IMG/VR virus record: IMGVR_UViG_3300047440_000298
Location: 1 to 44,181 of that record
Length of the DNA: 44,181 bases
Reading direction: 5' to 3' (one strand)
Source of the DNA: a virus
Below, one piece after another: positions 3,797-26,119 of this stretch (the stretch's first letter is position 1; every line of letters begins with the position of its first letter). The notes beneath the pieces are model-generated. The model made no database searches. It was given only the letters and a program-made list of their open reading frames with translations, and was not told where the DNA came from. Position numbers and translations under genes: made by a program.

Positions 3797-4254
3797 GGAG
3801 ACCGCTGATCGTCGGCCAAGCGCCGGGTCCCAACACGGATCCGGCGCGGCCGCTTTCGGGGCGGTGCGGAAGGCGGCTGGCCGAGCTTTGCGGCCTCGGG
3901 CCCGACGACTTCGCGCTCCTGTTCGAGCGCGTGAACGTGATCTCCGACTTCCCCGGGAAGGCGGGGAAGGGCGACCTCTTCCCGCTCCGCGAGGCGCAGG
4001 AGATCGCCGGCGGCATGATGATGAACGGCGACCTCTCCGACCGCCCGGTGGTGCTGCTCGGCGACCACGTCGCGCGGGCGTTCTTCCTGCCGCGCGCGCT
4101 GAAGCCGTTCGTCTGGATTCCCGGGTTGGCCTTCAGGATCGCGATCTGCCCGCACCCTTCCGGCGTGAACCGCTGGTGGAACGAGGAGGCGAACGTCCGG
4201 CGGGCGCGGCGCTTCTGGCGGCGGCTCGCGCGGGAAGCAACACCCGGTCCCTGA
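3793..4254 (+). CDS. Uracil-DNA-glycosylase-superfamily-like protein
   Basis: 153 residues. The N-terminal LIVGQAPGPNTDP segment fits the UDG-superfamily motif 1 (GxxPG with a following loop), followed by SGRCGRRLAELCGL. The C-terminal HPSGVNRWWN fits motif 2 (HPS). Family members remove uracil or sense modified bases; here the protein may act on phage DNA or may lack activity. The GTG at 3793 overlaps the previous stop. The final 40 codons run over the end of the minus-strand cytosine methylase gene, so the two operons converge and overlap by about 120 bases. Confidence 0.65.
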   Translation: MRRPLIVGQAPGPNTDPARPLSGRCGRRLAELCGLGPDDFALLFERVNVISDFPGKAGKGDLFPLREAQEIAGGMMMNGDLSDRPVVLLGDHVARAFFLPRALKPFVWIPGLAFRIAICPHPSGVNRWWNEEANVRRARRFWRRLAREATPGP

Positions 4255-6211
4255 CCGCCTCCGCGATGTGCCGCATCATGACCGGCGGCACCGAGTTGCC
4301 CAGGCGCTCCCACCTCTGCCCGTAGGTGCCGACCAGGACGAAGTCGTCCGGGAAGGCGCAGATCCGCTTCAGCTCCTCGATCGTGAACTTGCGCTTCTCG
4401 GTCGGGTGCGTGACGGCGGCGGTCCCGCCGGGCGATCCCTGGTTGACGCTGCCGACGCCCATCGCCGTGATGGTCGGGCAAGGCTTCCCCGCGTCGGGCC
4501 GCACCAGCGAGAAGAACTTGTCGGACTGCTGGCCCGGGTTGAGCTTGTCCCACTCCTCCCCGACGGCGTAGCCCTCCAGCGTCGCCGCGACGTTGTCCGG
4601 GACGGTGTCGCCGTTGGCGATCTTGCGGACCTCGACCTCCAGATGGTTCGACGACTTCGCCCGCCCGTGGGTGCCGACGGTGAGCGCGGGCCCGTCCGTC
4701 ACGTCGACCTGCTTGTCGTAGCGCGAGTTCTGGACGACGCGCTCCTCGACGTGGACTTGGTGCTTCGCCGCCGCTCCGTAGCCATGCGAGGAGATCGCCG
4801 CGCTTGGCTCGTCGACGGACCTTCGGCGCTCGCCGTAGTCCTTGCCGCCGTTCTGCCCCCGGTAGACGATCTCCGCATCGAAGTTCGACCGCCGCGCCAT
4901 CACAGTCGGCGCCGGTTCGTCCTCGGGGTACTCCTGGCCCTTGCCGCGGTGCGCGGCGTTCTTGTTCTTCACGATCTTGAAGTGGTTGCGCGGGCCGCCG
5001 CCGCTGCCGTCGCCGGGGCCCGCGGTGACCGTCGGGGCCGGGAGGTCGGTGATGTCCCGCGGCGGCTGCCCGTTGGCGTACTGCACCATGAACTGCGAGC
5101 TGTTCTTCCGCCCGCCGTCGGCCAGCACCGACATGCTCGGCTCGTCCGCGCTCAACGGCTCGCCGCTCTCGCGCCTGCGCCTGCTGCCGCGCCCGACCAC
5201 GATCTCGGCCTCGACCTTCATGTGGTGCGACGTCGAGGAGATGATCGTCGGCGCCGGGCGGTTGGTCACGTCGCCGCCGCCGGCGGGCTTGAAGCTGCCG
5301 CCCATGTCGAGCGTCGCCCGCCCGATCCACGGCAGCGCGTCGCGGACGCTGTAGCGGTACGGCAGCGGCGCCGGGAACGCGGGCTCGAGCCCGAGGTCCT
5401 CGCGCGCGCCGACGAAGATGATCCGCTGGCGCTGCTGCGGGACGCCGAGCCACTGCGCGTCGAGCAGCCGCGCCTCGACCCGGTAGCCGACCTTCAGCCG
5501 CCGCAGGATCTCCAGGAAGTAGCCCTTGGCCGCGCCCTTCACGAGGCCCGACACGTTCTCGGCCACGAACGCCCGCGGCTGCAGGCCGTCGCGCAGCCGG
5601 CAGAACTCGAAGAACAGGTCCTCGTTCTTCTGCTTGGCCCCGTGGGCGTACTGGCGCTCCTCGCCCCATCCCCGCTCGCGCTTGCCCGCGGTCGAGAACG
5701 CCTGGCACGGCGGCGAGCCGTCGAACAGGTCCAGCTCGCCGACCTTCAGCTTCGCGGCCTTCAGGATCTCCGCGGCCTCGATCTCGCGCACGTCGCGGCC
5801 GTCCAGCACGGTCCCCGCCGCCATGTTGGCCCGGTAGCTCTCCTGGGCGACCGGCACGAACTCGTTCGCCCAGACCACGCGGAAGCCCGCCATCCGGTAG
5901 CCGAGGCTCGAGCCGCCGCAGCCCGCGAAGGTGGTCGCGACCGTCATCCCGTTCCAGGGCATCGCCGCGATCTCCGAGACCAGCGGCACGCGGTACTCCG
6001 GCTTGCCGCCGTCGAACAACTGCTTCTCCCCGCGCCTGGGCGCGGTCGGCGATTTGGGAATCATGCTCTCACCCGTTTCCTCGATCCAATACTCGCCAGC
6101 GAAGGCGTCGCCGGTCCCCTGCGCGCATATCGTGAACGACGGATGCAAGTCGAGCGACCGGCGTTTGATCGCTCCCGTCCGCCCGTCGCGTTGGCAGAAC
6201 CACGCGGTCAT
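4133..6211 (-). CDS. DNA C5-cytosine methyltransferase with expanded recognition region
   Basis: 692 residues. It carries the C5-methylase motifs in order: FAGCGGSSLG (residues 95-104, SAM binding), SPPCQAFS (166-173, catalytic Cys 169), ENV (218-220), QQRQR (259-263) and RLGNSVPP (636-643). Between motifs VIII and X lie about 370 residues, far more than in small enzymes of the family. This stretch holds some eight degenerate blocks around a P-x-T-[IV] core (near residues 320, 359, 392, 435, 469, 509, 543 and 579). The ATG at 6211 overlaps the stop of the ParB-like gene; a second candidate start lies at residue 50. The basic C terminus runs antisense to the UDG-like gene. It would methylate cytosine in phage DNA to evade restriction. 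Confidence 0.9.
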   Translation of the reverse strand: MTAWFCQRDGRTGAIKRRSLDLHPSFTICAQGTGDAFAGEYWIEETGESMIPKSPTAPRRGEKQLFDGGKPEYRVPLVSEIAAMPWNGMTVATTFAGCGGSSLGYRMAGFRVVWANEFVPVAQESYRANMAAGTVLDGRDVREIEAAEILKAAKLKVGELDLFDGSPPCQAFSTAGKRERGWGEERQYAHGAKQKNEDLFFEFCRLRDGLQPRAFVAENVSGLVKGAAKGYFLEILRRLKVGYRVEARLLDAQWLGVPQQRQRIIFVGAREDLGLEPAFPAPLPYRYSVRDALPWIGRATLDMGGSFKPAGGGDVTNRPAPTIISSTSHHMKVEAEIVVGRGSRRRRESGEPLSADEPSMSVLADGGRKNSSQFMVQYANGQPPRDITDLPAPTVTAGPGDGSGGGPRNHFKIVKNKNAAHRGKGQEYPEDEPAPTVMARRSNFDAEIVYRGQNGGKDYGERRRSVDEPSAAISSHGYGAAAKHQVHVEERVVQNSRYDKQVDVTDGPALTVGTHGRAKSSNHLEVEVRKIANGDTVPDNVAATLEGYAVGEEWDKLNPGQQSDKFFSLVRPDAGKPCPTITAMGVGSVNQGSPGGTAAVTHPTEKRKFTIEELKRICAFPDDFVLVGTYGQRWERLGNSVPPVMMRHIAEAVRDRVLLPARAAARSAAPAGRSPPRSTSGSRRKGAGRSRS

Positions 6212-6822
6212 TCGTCGTCCGTCGCCTTGCCCGGCGCGGCGGAGCCCGACCACTTGTACCCGCACTTCGGGCAGCAGAACGCCGTCGGGATGTCCTCCCC
6301 GAACGCCGGGAACTCGCCGGGCGGCCCCGGCAGCGTCTCGAACTGCACGAGCTGGGTGTCGCCGAAGCCGAGCAGCTTCACGTCGAAGCCGTCCGCCCGC
6401 AGCGCGCCGATCTGGCCGCGCAGGAGGTCGCGGTCCCAGCCCGAGAGCAGGGCGACCTGGTTGTCCTGGATCCGCATCGCGGTCTTGTCGGCCTCCGACA
6501 GGCCGGTCCGGCGCGTGACCGGGAACTCGCGCAGCCCGGCGAGCGTCGCGGCGAGGAGCCGCCCGTGGCCCTTGAGGATCACGCCGTCCTCGTCGACGAC
6601 GATGTCCTGGTCGGGGCCGTACCGCTTGATCAGCTCGGCGAGGAGCGCGACCTGGGCCGGCGGGTGGGTCCGCGGATTGTCAGGCCAGGGGTAGATCTTC
6701 GAGAGCGGGAGCGAGACCCGCTCCATCCGCGGCGGAGCCTCGCCGGCGCGTTTTTTGGCCCGGCCCCTCCCGTTCCTCCGCTTCCGCCCCGGAATCGAAC
6801 CGGCGGCCTGTTTCTCGGTCAC
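6208..6822 (-). CDS. ParB/Srx-type nuclease-like domain protein
   Basis: 204 residues. A basic tail (1-33) precedes the ParB N-terminal fold: a SLPLSKIYPWPDNPRTHP entry strand, then ELIKRYG, DEDGVILKGHGRLLAA (the GHxR box) and EFPVTRR. Phage proteins with this fold commonly sit beside DNA methylases. There is no HTH or CTPase partner region, so it is not a partition ParB. The C terminus has a zinc-ribbon half, CCPKCGYKW. The GTG at 6822 has a strong GGGAGG site, which fixes the start inside the previous gene's reading frame. Its stop overlaps the methylase ATG. Confidence 0.8.
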   Translation of the reverse strand: MTEKQAAGSIPGRKRRNGRGRAKKRAGEAPPRMERVSLPLSKIYPWPDNPRTHPPAQVALLAELIKRYGPDQDIVVDEDGVILKGHGRLLAATLAGLREFPVTRRTGLSEADKTAMRIQDNQVALLSGWDRDLLRGQIGALRADGFDVKLLGFGDTQLVQFETLPGPPGEFPAFGEDIPTAFCCPKCGYKWSGSAAPGKATDDE

Positions 6823-23526: not shown

Positions 23527-23913
23527 TTAGCGCGGCGGGACGCTCGCGTTCGGCGGCGGCTGGATCAGCGACCGCGAGATCAGCAGGTCGATCTGCCGCT
23601 GCATCGCGTCGAGCCGCCCGACCAGCGCCGCCCGCGTCGCGTCGTCGGTGTGCGCGTGGGACTCTGTTTCGACCTTCGTCGCCAGCTCTTTTCGCTGCTC
23701 GACGCTTTCCGCTTCGAGCCGCCGGAAGCCGTCGGTCATCCGCGTCACGAGGTCGTTGTGCTCGCGCAGCGTGACGTAGTTGTTCTTGATGTCCTTGATG
23801 TCGGAGCGCGGGTCGGCCAGCGACCAGAACATGCCGATCAGGCCGATGCCCACCGCCAACGCGACAGACACGATGATCTGCCACATTCCCATCCAGGAAT
23901 TGTTGAGCGGCAT
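23527..23913 (-). CDS. Single-pass membrane coiled-coil protein, 128 aa
   Basis: One membrane helix near the N terminus (MGMWQIIVSVALAVGIGLIGMFW) followed by a long charged coiled coil (DIKDIKNNYVTLREHNDLVTRM and on). This is the form of spanin-like or anchored accessory proteins. ATG at 23913 chosen as the start nearest the membrane helix. It is the last gene of the late operon. Function inferred only from shape. Confidence 0.55.
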   Translation of the reverse strand: MPLNNSWMGMWQIIVSVALAVGIGLIGMFWSLADPRSDIKDIKNNYVTLREHNDLVTRMTDGFRRLEAESVEQRKELATKVETESHAHTDDATRAALVGRLDAMQRQIDLLISRSLIQPPPNASVPPR

Positions 23914-23956
23914 TTTTGAACACCCCCCCGAGGGCGCGTTCAAATACCACGATTCT

Positions 23957-24376
23957 TCATCGGGCCTTGGGCTGGAGGGCGGTGCCGATCTGGCCGAGGA
24001 CTCGCTCGAGCTTCTCGTCGCTGGCCTTCTGGCGCTCCTGCGTCACCGCCGTCAGCGTCGTGAGCTGCCCGATGCTGTCGGCGATCTTCTGGTTGCTCTT
24101 GATGAACTCCTGGGCGAGCGCCTGGCGCTTCTCCTCCTGGTCCCGCGCGACGGTCTGCAGGGTGATCAGCGAGGACGCCTGGGTCGTCTTGATGTCGGAG
24201 ACGTCCTTGCTCGTCGAGGTCTGGTTCCAGACCATGAAGGCGTAGCCGACGGCGACCACGAAGATGCCCGCGCCGAACAAGCCGACCTGCGTCAGGGACA
24301 TTCGCACCCCGGTGTCGGGGGTCAGGACGCCGTCGTCGCGACGCCTGGGCCTGCCGGAGGAGCGCCGCGCGGACAT
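23957..24376 (-). CDS. Membrane-anchored coiled-coil protein, 139 aa
   Basis: A basic tail, a membrane helix (VGLFGAGIFVVAVGYAFMVW), then a coiled coil (EEKRQALAQEFIKSNQKIADSI). The general shape is spanin-like but no lipobox partner is identified. AGGTGAG precedes the ATG. It follows the signal-peptide gene directly in the operon. Confidence 0.6.
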   Translation of the reverse strand: MSARRSSGRPRRRDDGVLTPDTGVRMSLTQVGLFGAGIFVVAVGYAFMVWNQTSTSKDVSDIKTTQASSLITLQTVARDQEEKRQALAQEFIKSNQKIADSIGQLTTLTAVTQERQKASDEKLERVLGQIGTALQPKAR

Positions 24377-24380
24377 CGGC

Positions 24381-24920
24381 TCACCTGATCGGCAGCAGGT
24401 TCAGCACGGGCAACGCCGGCAGCAGCCCGCCGGCGAGGCCCGGGATCGCCGGGGCCGCGAGGCCGCCGGTCCCGACCGTGACGCCGACCATCGCCGCGAG
24501 GCGGACGAACAGCAGCGTCTCATCCTGCACGAGCGGCGCGCAGCCGATCCGCAGGTAGGTCGGGAGCCCGGCCTGCGCCGTCAGGCGGGCGAGGCGGACG
24601 CGCTCGAAGATCACCGCGGGCCCCGGCGGCTGGCTGTCCGGCTTCGGCAGTTTGCCGATGAACTTGATCATCGCGACGAAGCAAGTGTGCGCGATCTCGT
24701 CGCGCATCTGCCCGGTGTCGGGGTCGATCGCCGCGGCGAGGGAGTCCGCGGCCTCGATGTCCGCGGTGCCCTTCGCCGCGATCCGCGTCAGGACGTCGCC
24801 GACGTCGTTGCTCGCCGGCGCGGCGAGCGGCGAGACCGCCCTCTTGACCTGGGCGAGCGCGACGCCGGGCAGCAAGAGCGCGATCAGGAGCGCGGCACAA
24901 AAGTGTTTCACGTGAAACAT
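24381..24920 (-). CDS. Secreted hypothetical protein, 179 aa; start codons contain a parS site
   Basis: Begins MFHVKHFCAALLIALLLPGVALAQ, a clear signal peptide with a likely cleavage after ALA. The mature part is helical with a CFVAMIKFIGKL segment and a hydrophobic C terminus. No family recognised. The first codons (FHVKH) spell a perfect parS palindrome, so the DNA constrains the protein here. The gene lies directly after the holin-like gene. Function unknown. Confidence 0.65.
   Translation of the reverse strand: MFHVKHFCAALLIALLLPGVALAQVKRAVSPLAAPASNDVGDVLTRIAAKGTADIEAADSLAAAIDPDTGQMRDEIAHTCFVAMIKFIGKLPKPDSQPPGPAVIFERVRLARLTAQAGLPTYLRIGCAPLVQDETLLFVRLAAMVGVTVGTGGLAAPAIPGLAGGLLPALPVLNLLPIR
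24904..24919. other. parS: parS-like partition site (perfect consensus)
   Basis: TGTTTCACGTGAAACA is a perfect 16-bp palindrome and equals the widely conserved bacterial parS consensus, which ParB recognises. It sits inside the start of the secreted protein gene and is AT-rich in a GC-rich context. I see one copy in the window. The phage has no partition ParA/ParB here, so a host ParB would be the ligand. Confidence 0.8.
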
Positions 24921-24922
24921 TT

Positions 24923-25237
24923 TCACTTTTCCTGCGGCGGCGTCGGCGTTACCGCGATCGCCGAGATCACGTCGTCCTTCTTCGCCGAGCCCGAGCTCGA
25001 ACCGAAGAAGTAGCTGTAGACGTCCTTGAGGCAGCCGGTCATCACGCCGAGCAGCGTCATGAACGCGCCCGCGACCTTGTCGTCCATCGCGCTGCTCTTG
25101 AAAAGCAGCATGACCGCGAGGAACGAGACGACGATGATGATCGCCATCGCGAGGAAGCCCTGCGTGTCCGGGAGCCAGATCGGCCTCGACGGCTTCACCG
25201 TCGGGACGCTCGTCGGGGGTGATGTTTCTTCGGCCAT
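24923..25237 (-). CDS. Holin-like small membrane protein, 104 aa
   Basis: Two hydrophobic segments (LAMAIIIVVSFLAVMLLF and VAGAFMTLLGVMTGCL), a Pro-rich N-terminal tail and a short charged end. The size and place directly after the endolysin in the operon fit a holin. AGGAGGGG precedes the ATG. Assignment is by topology and context. Confidence 0.6.
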   Translation of the reverse strand: MAEETSPPTSVPTVKPSRPIWLPDTQGFLAMAIIIVVSFLAVMLLFKSSAMDDKVAGAFMTLLGVMTGCLKDVYSYFFGSSSGSAKKDDVISAIAVTPTPPQEK

Positions 25238-25246
25238 TTTCCCCTC

Positions 25247-26119
25247 CTACGTGGCCGGCCGATTCGCGGCAAGGGCGGCGTCCATCGCCGCGCAGAACGC
25301 CTCGTCGACGTAGCCGGTGTCCGGCATGCCGTGCTCCTGCTGGAATTTCCGCACCGCGGCGCGGGTCAGCCGGCCGAAGCTGCCGTCGACCGTGAGCGGC
25401 GCGTCGAGGTTCTCCACCACGTTGAGCGAGGCCTGCACCCACTTGACCCCGGTCAGGTGCGCGCCGACCGCGGGCGGGGCCGCCGCGACCTCCGGCTCCG
25501 CGGGCTCGGCCGCGGGCTCGACCGCCTCGCCGAACGCCAGCCGCGGCTCCAGCTCGATCATCCGCATGGCGATCGGCAGGCAGCCGAGCTGCTGGTCCAT
25601 CGCGGTCGGGTCCCAGTTGTGGTCGCTGACGTACTTGCCGCGCTGCTGGAGGTTCGTGCCGCCGACGACGTAGGGCGTGCGGATGCCGTGCGCCCGGCTG
25701 CCGCCGCCGTTGTAGTATTCCCACTTCCAGCAGGCGTAGGGCAGCGACCACGGCGCGCTGTTGACGTTGAGCCGGTCGCAGACCGTGAAAGCGTCGAGCG
25801 CCGCGACCTCCCAGGTGACCGGCCAGTGGTCGCTCGGCGGCCGCCCCGCCGGGACGTGCGTCGAGGGGTGCGTCAGGGGATCGCCCTGCGCCGGGTTGCG
25901 GTTGAACATCGCGCCGTTCTCGCCGTACTCGCGGTGGCAGATCGTCGCCATGACGACGACCGGGATGCCGGTCTCCGCCGCGATCGCGTCGAAGTGCTGG
26001 AGCCCGCGCAAGAGCCCGCGGGCGACCTGGTCGATCTCGTGCTCGCGCTCCGGCCTCGGCCGGCAGTTCGCCACCCAGGATTCGTACTCCGCCGCGAGCT
26101 CTTGGTACGGATGTGCCAT
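25247..26119 (-). CDS. Endolysin-like protein with C-terminal peptidoglycan-binding domain
   Basis: 290 residues. The first part follows a phage lysozyme-like layout (IAAETGIPVVVMATICHREYGENG, FNRNPAQGDPLTHPSTHVPAGRPP, WEVAALDAFTVCDRL, with His and acidic residues). The last ~70 residues are a PG_binding_1 domain (VKWVQASLNVVENL, TVDGSFGRLTRAAVRKFQQEHG). It would cut the host cell wall. GGAGGG precedes the ATG at 26119. Confidence 0.8.
   Translation of the reverse strand: MAHPYQELAAEYESWVANCRPRPEREHEIDQVARGLLRGLQHFDAIAAETGIPVVVMATICHREYGENGAMFNRNPAQGDPLTHPSTHVPAGRPPSDHWPVTWEVAALDAFTVCDRLNVNSAPWSLPYACWKWEYYNGGGSRAHGIRTPYVVGGTNLQQRGKYVSDHNWDPTAMDQQLGCLPIAMRMIELEPRLAFGEAVEPAAEPAEPEVAAAPPAVGAHLTGVKWVQASLNVVENLDAPLTVDGSFGRLTRAAVRKFQQEHGMPDTGYVDEAFCAAMDAALAANRPAT

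Follow-up and report, generated by a model that had tools for sequence, protein, structure and literature searches.

Why would a phage carry, among its late genes, the sequence on which bacteria load their own chromosome segregation protein? The question arises from a single 16-bp palindrome in the window, by which we mean the whole 44,181-nucleotide stretch of viral DNA analysed here (IMG/VR record IMGVR_UViG_3300047440_000298, positions 1 to 44,181). The palindrome, TGTTTCACGTGAAACA, lies at 24904-24919 (no strand assigned), has no mismatch to chromosomal-type parS and is the only match in the window at up to three mismatches, a threshold at which dinucleotide shuffles yielded 0.03 matches to the parS 16-mer. 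With the base composition of the window (68.6% G+C), about 6.5e-7 exact matches are expected per window; the corresponding figure for the whole phage is 1.1e-6. The original prediction, that this is a perfect parS palindrome and that a random perfect 16-mer would be very unlikely, therefore stands. Since the window contains four perfect 16-bp palindromes, what is notable is the exact identity with parS rather than the palindrome as such. These figures support the reading of the 16-mer as an exact host-type parS and not a chance match.

The same sequence serves the bacteria that such phages are likely to infect. Among bacterial genomes with relatives of the phage capsid protein, the closest are mostly Rhizobiales (Bosea, Xanthobacter, Methylobacterium, Mesorhizobium), and it is from these relatives that we infer the host of the window phage. 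Seventeen of 18 genomes with related prophages, again mostly Rhizobiales, carry one to four copies of the 16-mer, exact or with one mismatch and mostly clustered, while a reversed control pattern had no matches in the same 18 genomes. In the seven host clusters that we inspected, the sites adjoin mnmE, mnmG, rsmG, parA or parB. This clustering indicates that the phage site is the sequence that its likely hosts use as parS, which, together with the absence of mismatches, agrees with its earlier assignment to the chromosomal type. In hosts, parS frequently falls within coding sequence or at the start of a gene, as in the case of the residues VSRET in rsmG.

In the phage, the site lies within a lysis region encoded on the minus strand. 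An endolysin (25247-26119; PHROG endolysins) with a C-terminal peptidoglycan-binding domain (PF01471) is followed by a small, holin-like membrane gene (24923-25237; weak matches to PHROGs 9990 and 1544, of unknown function), by parS with an orphan gene (24381-24920), and by two Rz-like spanin candidates, at 23957-24376 (PHROG 739, a weak match at E 0.009) and 23527-23943 (PHROG 739, E 1.8e-4). The TGA of the membrane gene sits 2 nt ahead of the parS-bearing ATG, and a Shine-Dalgarno-like AGGA can be read at 24930-24933 on the minus strand, upstream of this start codon. The orphan gene begins ATG TTT CAC GTG AAA CAC. The palindrome had been described as forming codons 2-6; it does overlap the start of the gene, but it runs, on the minus strand, from the second base of the start codon to the second base of codon 6. 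The gene is probably real because its GC3 is 0.96. It would encode a 179-aa protein (MFHVKHFCAALLIALLLPGVALAQ...) whose N-terminus reads like a signal peptide, which has no PHROG or Pfam match and whose homologs are confined to records of the same phage among viral contigs, with none in INPHARED.

A second phage carries parS in the same slot. In an uncultured Rhizobiales MAG we found two chromosomal sites and a third exact parS on a 68-kb phage contig (the C666 phage), the assignment of which to the MAG depends on binning. Here, parS lies 1 nt past the stop codon of the membrane gene that follows the endolysin. The C666 endolysin shares 60% identity with the window endolysin, the membrane genes in the two slots are weakly similar, and few other genes of the two phages match. 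Beyond parS the C666 sequence diverges from the window, and the site is outside any long gene. Since the overlapping gene is missing from the C666 phage whereas the 16-mer is present there, exact and in the same slot, it seems to be the DNA of this slot that has been kept and not the peptide, a conservation that extends to this one other phage. This is the opposite of the pattern expected if the peptide mattered, FHVKH retained through other codons with the palindrome lost, and that pattern was not seen. We therefore rejected peptide selection as the cause of the 16-mer, the protein also having no homolog in relatives or INPHARED. An RNA hairpin that controls translation would account for a palindrome overlapping an ATG, but the predicted folding is no better than that of shuffled sequences (z = 0.07), the C666 copy is off the start of any long gene, and the exact identity with parS would be left unexplained; we rejected this explanation as highly improbable.

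Nearer relatives give a different picture. Apart from the same phage itself, the capsid relatives all lack an exact parS, several of these relatives being fragments, and three carry versions with two or three mismatches; gene 24381-24920 is absent from all of them. The lack of an exact copy argues against a lineage-wide trait. Around the endolysin of L338 there was likewise no parS, and the part of Bradyrhizobium phage ppBjS10J-1 that was examined had none either. In one capsid relative (G003, L154:2974-2989), a near-parS, AGTTTCACATGAAACG, covers the start codon of another secreted lysis-region gene; it has 13 of the 14 core bases and, at three mismatches, may be due to chance. The absence of exact sites from close capsid relatives and the orphan status of the overlapping gene are what could be expected if the 16-mer were a functionless accident of an AT-rich gene start, or a functionless passenger that had arrived with host DNA. 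We regard such an origin as quite unlikely given an expectation of about 1e-6, the occupation of the same slot in the distant C666 phage and the strong enrichment of the site in viral DNA described below. Beyond the site and one to four flanking bases, moreover, the adjoining DNA shows no match to host parS loci, and we rejected acquisition of a host parS together with its flanks.

The phage itself has no detected partition system of its own. Two IMG/VR records have the same DNA as the window. The ends of record IMGVR_UViG_3300046723_000260 (72,242 bp) match over ~127 bp, which indicates that the genome closes circularly at ~72,115 bp, so that the window represents ~61% of a ~72.1 kb myovirus genome in which parS occurs once. 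The phage encodes portal, head, DUF3383, baseplate and tail proteins of E217-like contractile phages, as well as several DNA methylases, QueC, and ERF and YqaJ recombination proteins; the QueC-like 7-deazaguanine gene (PF06508, 9346-9894) could, alongside the methylases, belong to a DNA modification pathway. Neither ParA (PF13614) nor ParB (PF02195) has a match in the whole 72-kb genome, and the ParA and parS-binding ParB that make a ParABS system of the P1 or RedRock type self-sufficient were not detected. The original statement that the window has no partition ParA or ParB holds for these families genome-wide, but it overlooked a protein with a ParB-like fold at 6208-6822 (minus strand), which matches PHROG 620, 'ParB-like partition protein', with a best E of 2.3e-36. 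This protein has no match to a Pfam family and hence none to an HTH family, and is probably not the parS reader. A C5 DNA methylase lies beside it at 4133-6265, and the otherwise distant C666 phage keeps the pair at ~50-57% identity (~57% for the ParB-like homolog). Phage proteins with a ParB-CTPase fold that are linked to methyltransferases are known (PMC12704722); the 6208-6822 protein resembles them in adjoining a methylase and differs in having no recognised DNA-binding HTH family and in being unlinked to the parS site.

No tyrosine (PF00589) or serine (PF00239) recombinase was detected in the phage genome, a feature shared with phage-plasmids. The idea that the phage could persist as a plasmid-like prophage fits the missing integrase, but no plasmid replication or lysogeny module was recognised among the top 25 Pfam/PHROG families listed, and a plasmid-like state is thus without direct support.

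Orphan sites of this kind are not peculiar to the window phage. The parS sequence was found in at least 120 stretches of IMG/VR viral contigs, mostly non-redundant and falling into at least 100 clusters, whereas two scrambled palindromes (same bases, other order) had 11 and 10 matches, in 4 and 5 clusters, in the whole collection. Relative to these scrambled palindromes, parS is over-represented at least about 100-fold. A narrower pattern had 11 loci in common with the first set among the matches listed, and the total of ~1,300 parS stretches obtained from it is an extrapolation that assumes that this pattern samples sites evenly. Among the matches listed, viral parS sites avoid open reading frames (77 of 177 inside, against 138 expected) and their flanking genes include those for terminase, portal, endolysin and scaffold. 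ParB_N scored above the cut-off in 4 of ~81 parS-bearing viral records, and ParA in 1 of 50. We rejected a general preference of viral parS for lysis cassettes, since only ~4 of 57 long loci lie next to endolysins, too few to support it.

Several records contain more than one site. A viral contig without ParB_N has four perfect parS at an exact 30-bp spacing within coding sequence, as a repeated VSRET (L226:2833-2938). Seven exact or one-mismatch sites are distributed over 8 kb at L246:1145-9220, one of them where a small membrane gene ends, directly before a GH25 endolysin. The 96-kb record behind L276 (G106), also without ParB_N, has twelve exact or one-mismatch sites at ~1.3-11 kb, and a human-gut phage scaffold in INPHARED combines two exact sites with two near ones. 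The orphan sites that numerous phages carry, in some cases as arrays (7 in G094, 12 in G106 and 4 at 30-bp spacing in G083), could serve as decoys, with replicated phage genomes titrating host ParB off the chromosome and disturbing host segregation during infection. We consider this unlikely for the window phage, whose single site fits a decoy less well than the arrays of other phages do, and the gain from blocking segregation in a cell that is about to lyse is uncertain. The far higher frequency of viral parS than expected by chance suggests that many phages draw on the host chromosome segregation protein, ParB. On balance, we favor the view that orphan host-type parS is a widespread phage trait and that many phages without ParA and ParB load host ParB-CTP clamps, and perhaps SMC.

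A family of marine phages (L351-L429), unrelated to the window phage, allowed us to ask whether phage-borne parS is conserved at 80 loci that were picked by terminase and not by parS. Among the 75 loci with enough upstream sequence, 55 have an exact parS and 2 a one-mismatch version, none has a version with two to four mismatches, and 18 are without the site. The site lies ~108 nt upstream of the terminase gene, at a distance that varies. In 40 distinct sequences, aligned from rows with at most four mismatches only, the parS columns are 99.7% conserved, compared with 71% in both flanks; the gap between one and five mismatches makes the constraint clear despite this row filter. The pattern of conservation in the marine family shows that parS can be maintained by selection in phage genomes. 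For the nearest isolated relative of the family, the 50 kb read contain no annotated integrase, which points to a function in lytic growth rather than in the segregation of a prophage; isolated pelagiphages have no parS near terminase. For the window phage, too, parS is quite probably maintained by selection.

What such selection would act on is a separate question, and the position of the window site, overlapping a start codon in a lysis cassette, invites an explanation by transcription control. Host ParB spreading from parS would dampen premature expression of the overlapping gene and of the downstream spanin genes, with no role in segregation. In P. aeruginosa, ParB at the intergenic sites parS3 and parS4 represses the adjacent genes, and a test promoter gives less expression when parS is put upstream of it, whereas loss of Spo0J in B. 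subtilis leaves the genes adjoining parS unchanged (PMC7022226). Another phage has three parS just upstream of an amidase endolysin, but elsewhere phage parS sites lie by terminase, scaffold and other genes, so that lysis genes are just one location, and their small excess beside endolysins (~4 of 57 long loci) may be chance. We therefore see transcription control as the sole function of the site as rather unlikely.

We instead favor an account in which the phage 16-mer is a working copy of the host chromosomal parS. Clamps of host ParB with bound CTP would be loaded at this site and spread into the neighboring lysis region, so that the host ParA/ParB (and SMC) machinery would have each phage genome as a client. 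That host ParB binds the phage site is very likely; the account as a whole, of host ParB clamps loaded on phage DNA that becomes a client of host segregation, we judge to be probable. The benefit would most likely lie in keeping an extrachromosomal genome in the cell and in position, which the missing integrase would fit, although we put this forward only tentatively as the main advantage. The location of the site in late genes, presumably silent until lysis, may be where a ParB coat is least harmful, or the coat may keep the lysis genes quiet.

This arrangement would have parallels in known systems. Phages of the CTXphi type use host XerCD at a dif-like site and, like the window phage, bring only a cis site to a host chromosome-maintenance protein; there the outcome is recombination for integration, whereas here it would be ParB loading. 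The chromosomal ParABS of alphaproteobacteria, with parS near mnmG, rsmG and parAB, has the identical 16 bp and, often, the same placement at gene starts or in coding sequence, but the window parS belongs to a phage that has neither parA nor a partition parB. The mycobacteriophage RedRock, an extrachromosomal prophage, carries its own parABS with parA, parB and repeated 8-bp parS motifs (PMC7157519). It resembles the window phage in having a centromere-like element on a phage genome and no integrase detected, while the window phage has the host-type site only. Phage-encoded parABS is thus already known, and what would be new is a known cis element on a virus that relies on the protein of its host. 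In the open-access literature searched, to which most subscription papers and preprints do not belong, we found no description of phages with an orphan host parS.

ParB, a CTP-dependent DNA clamp, is central to the way in which bacteria segregate their chromosomes. Should it be common for phages to bring only the site at which ParB loads, then viruses that have no partition protein of their own could exploit or disturb segregation, the positioning of origins and the loading of SMC. Such phages would be missed by searches for ParA and ParB genes, and their parS could provide a sequence-based hint of host compatibility.
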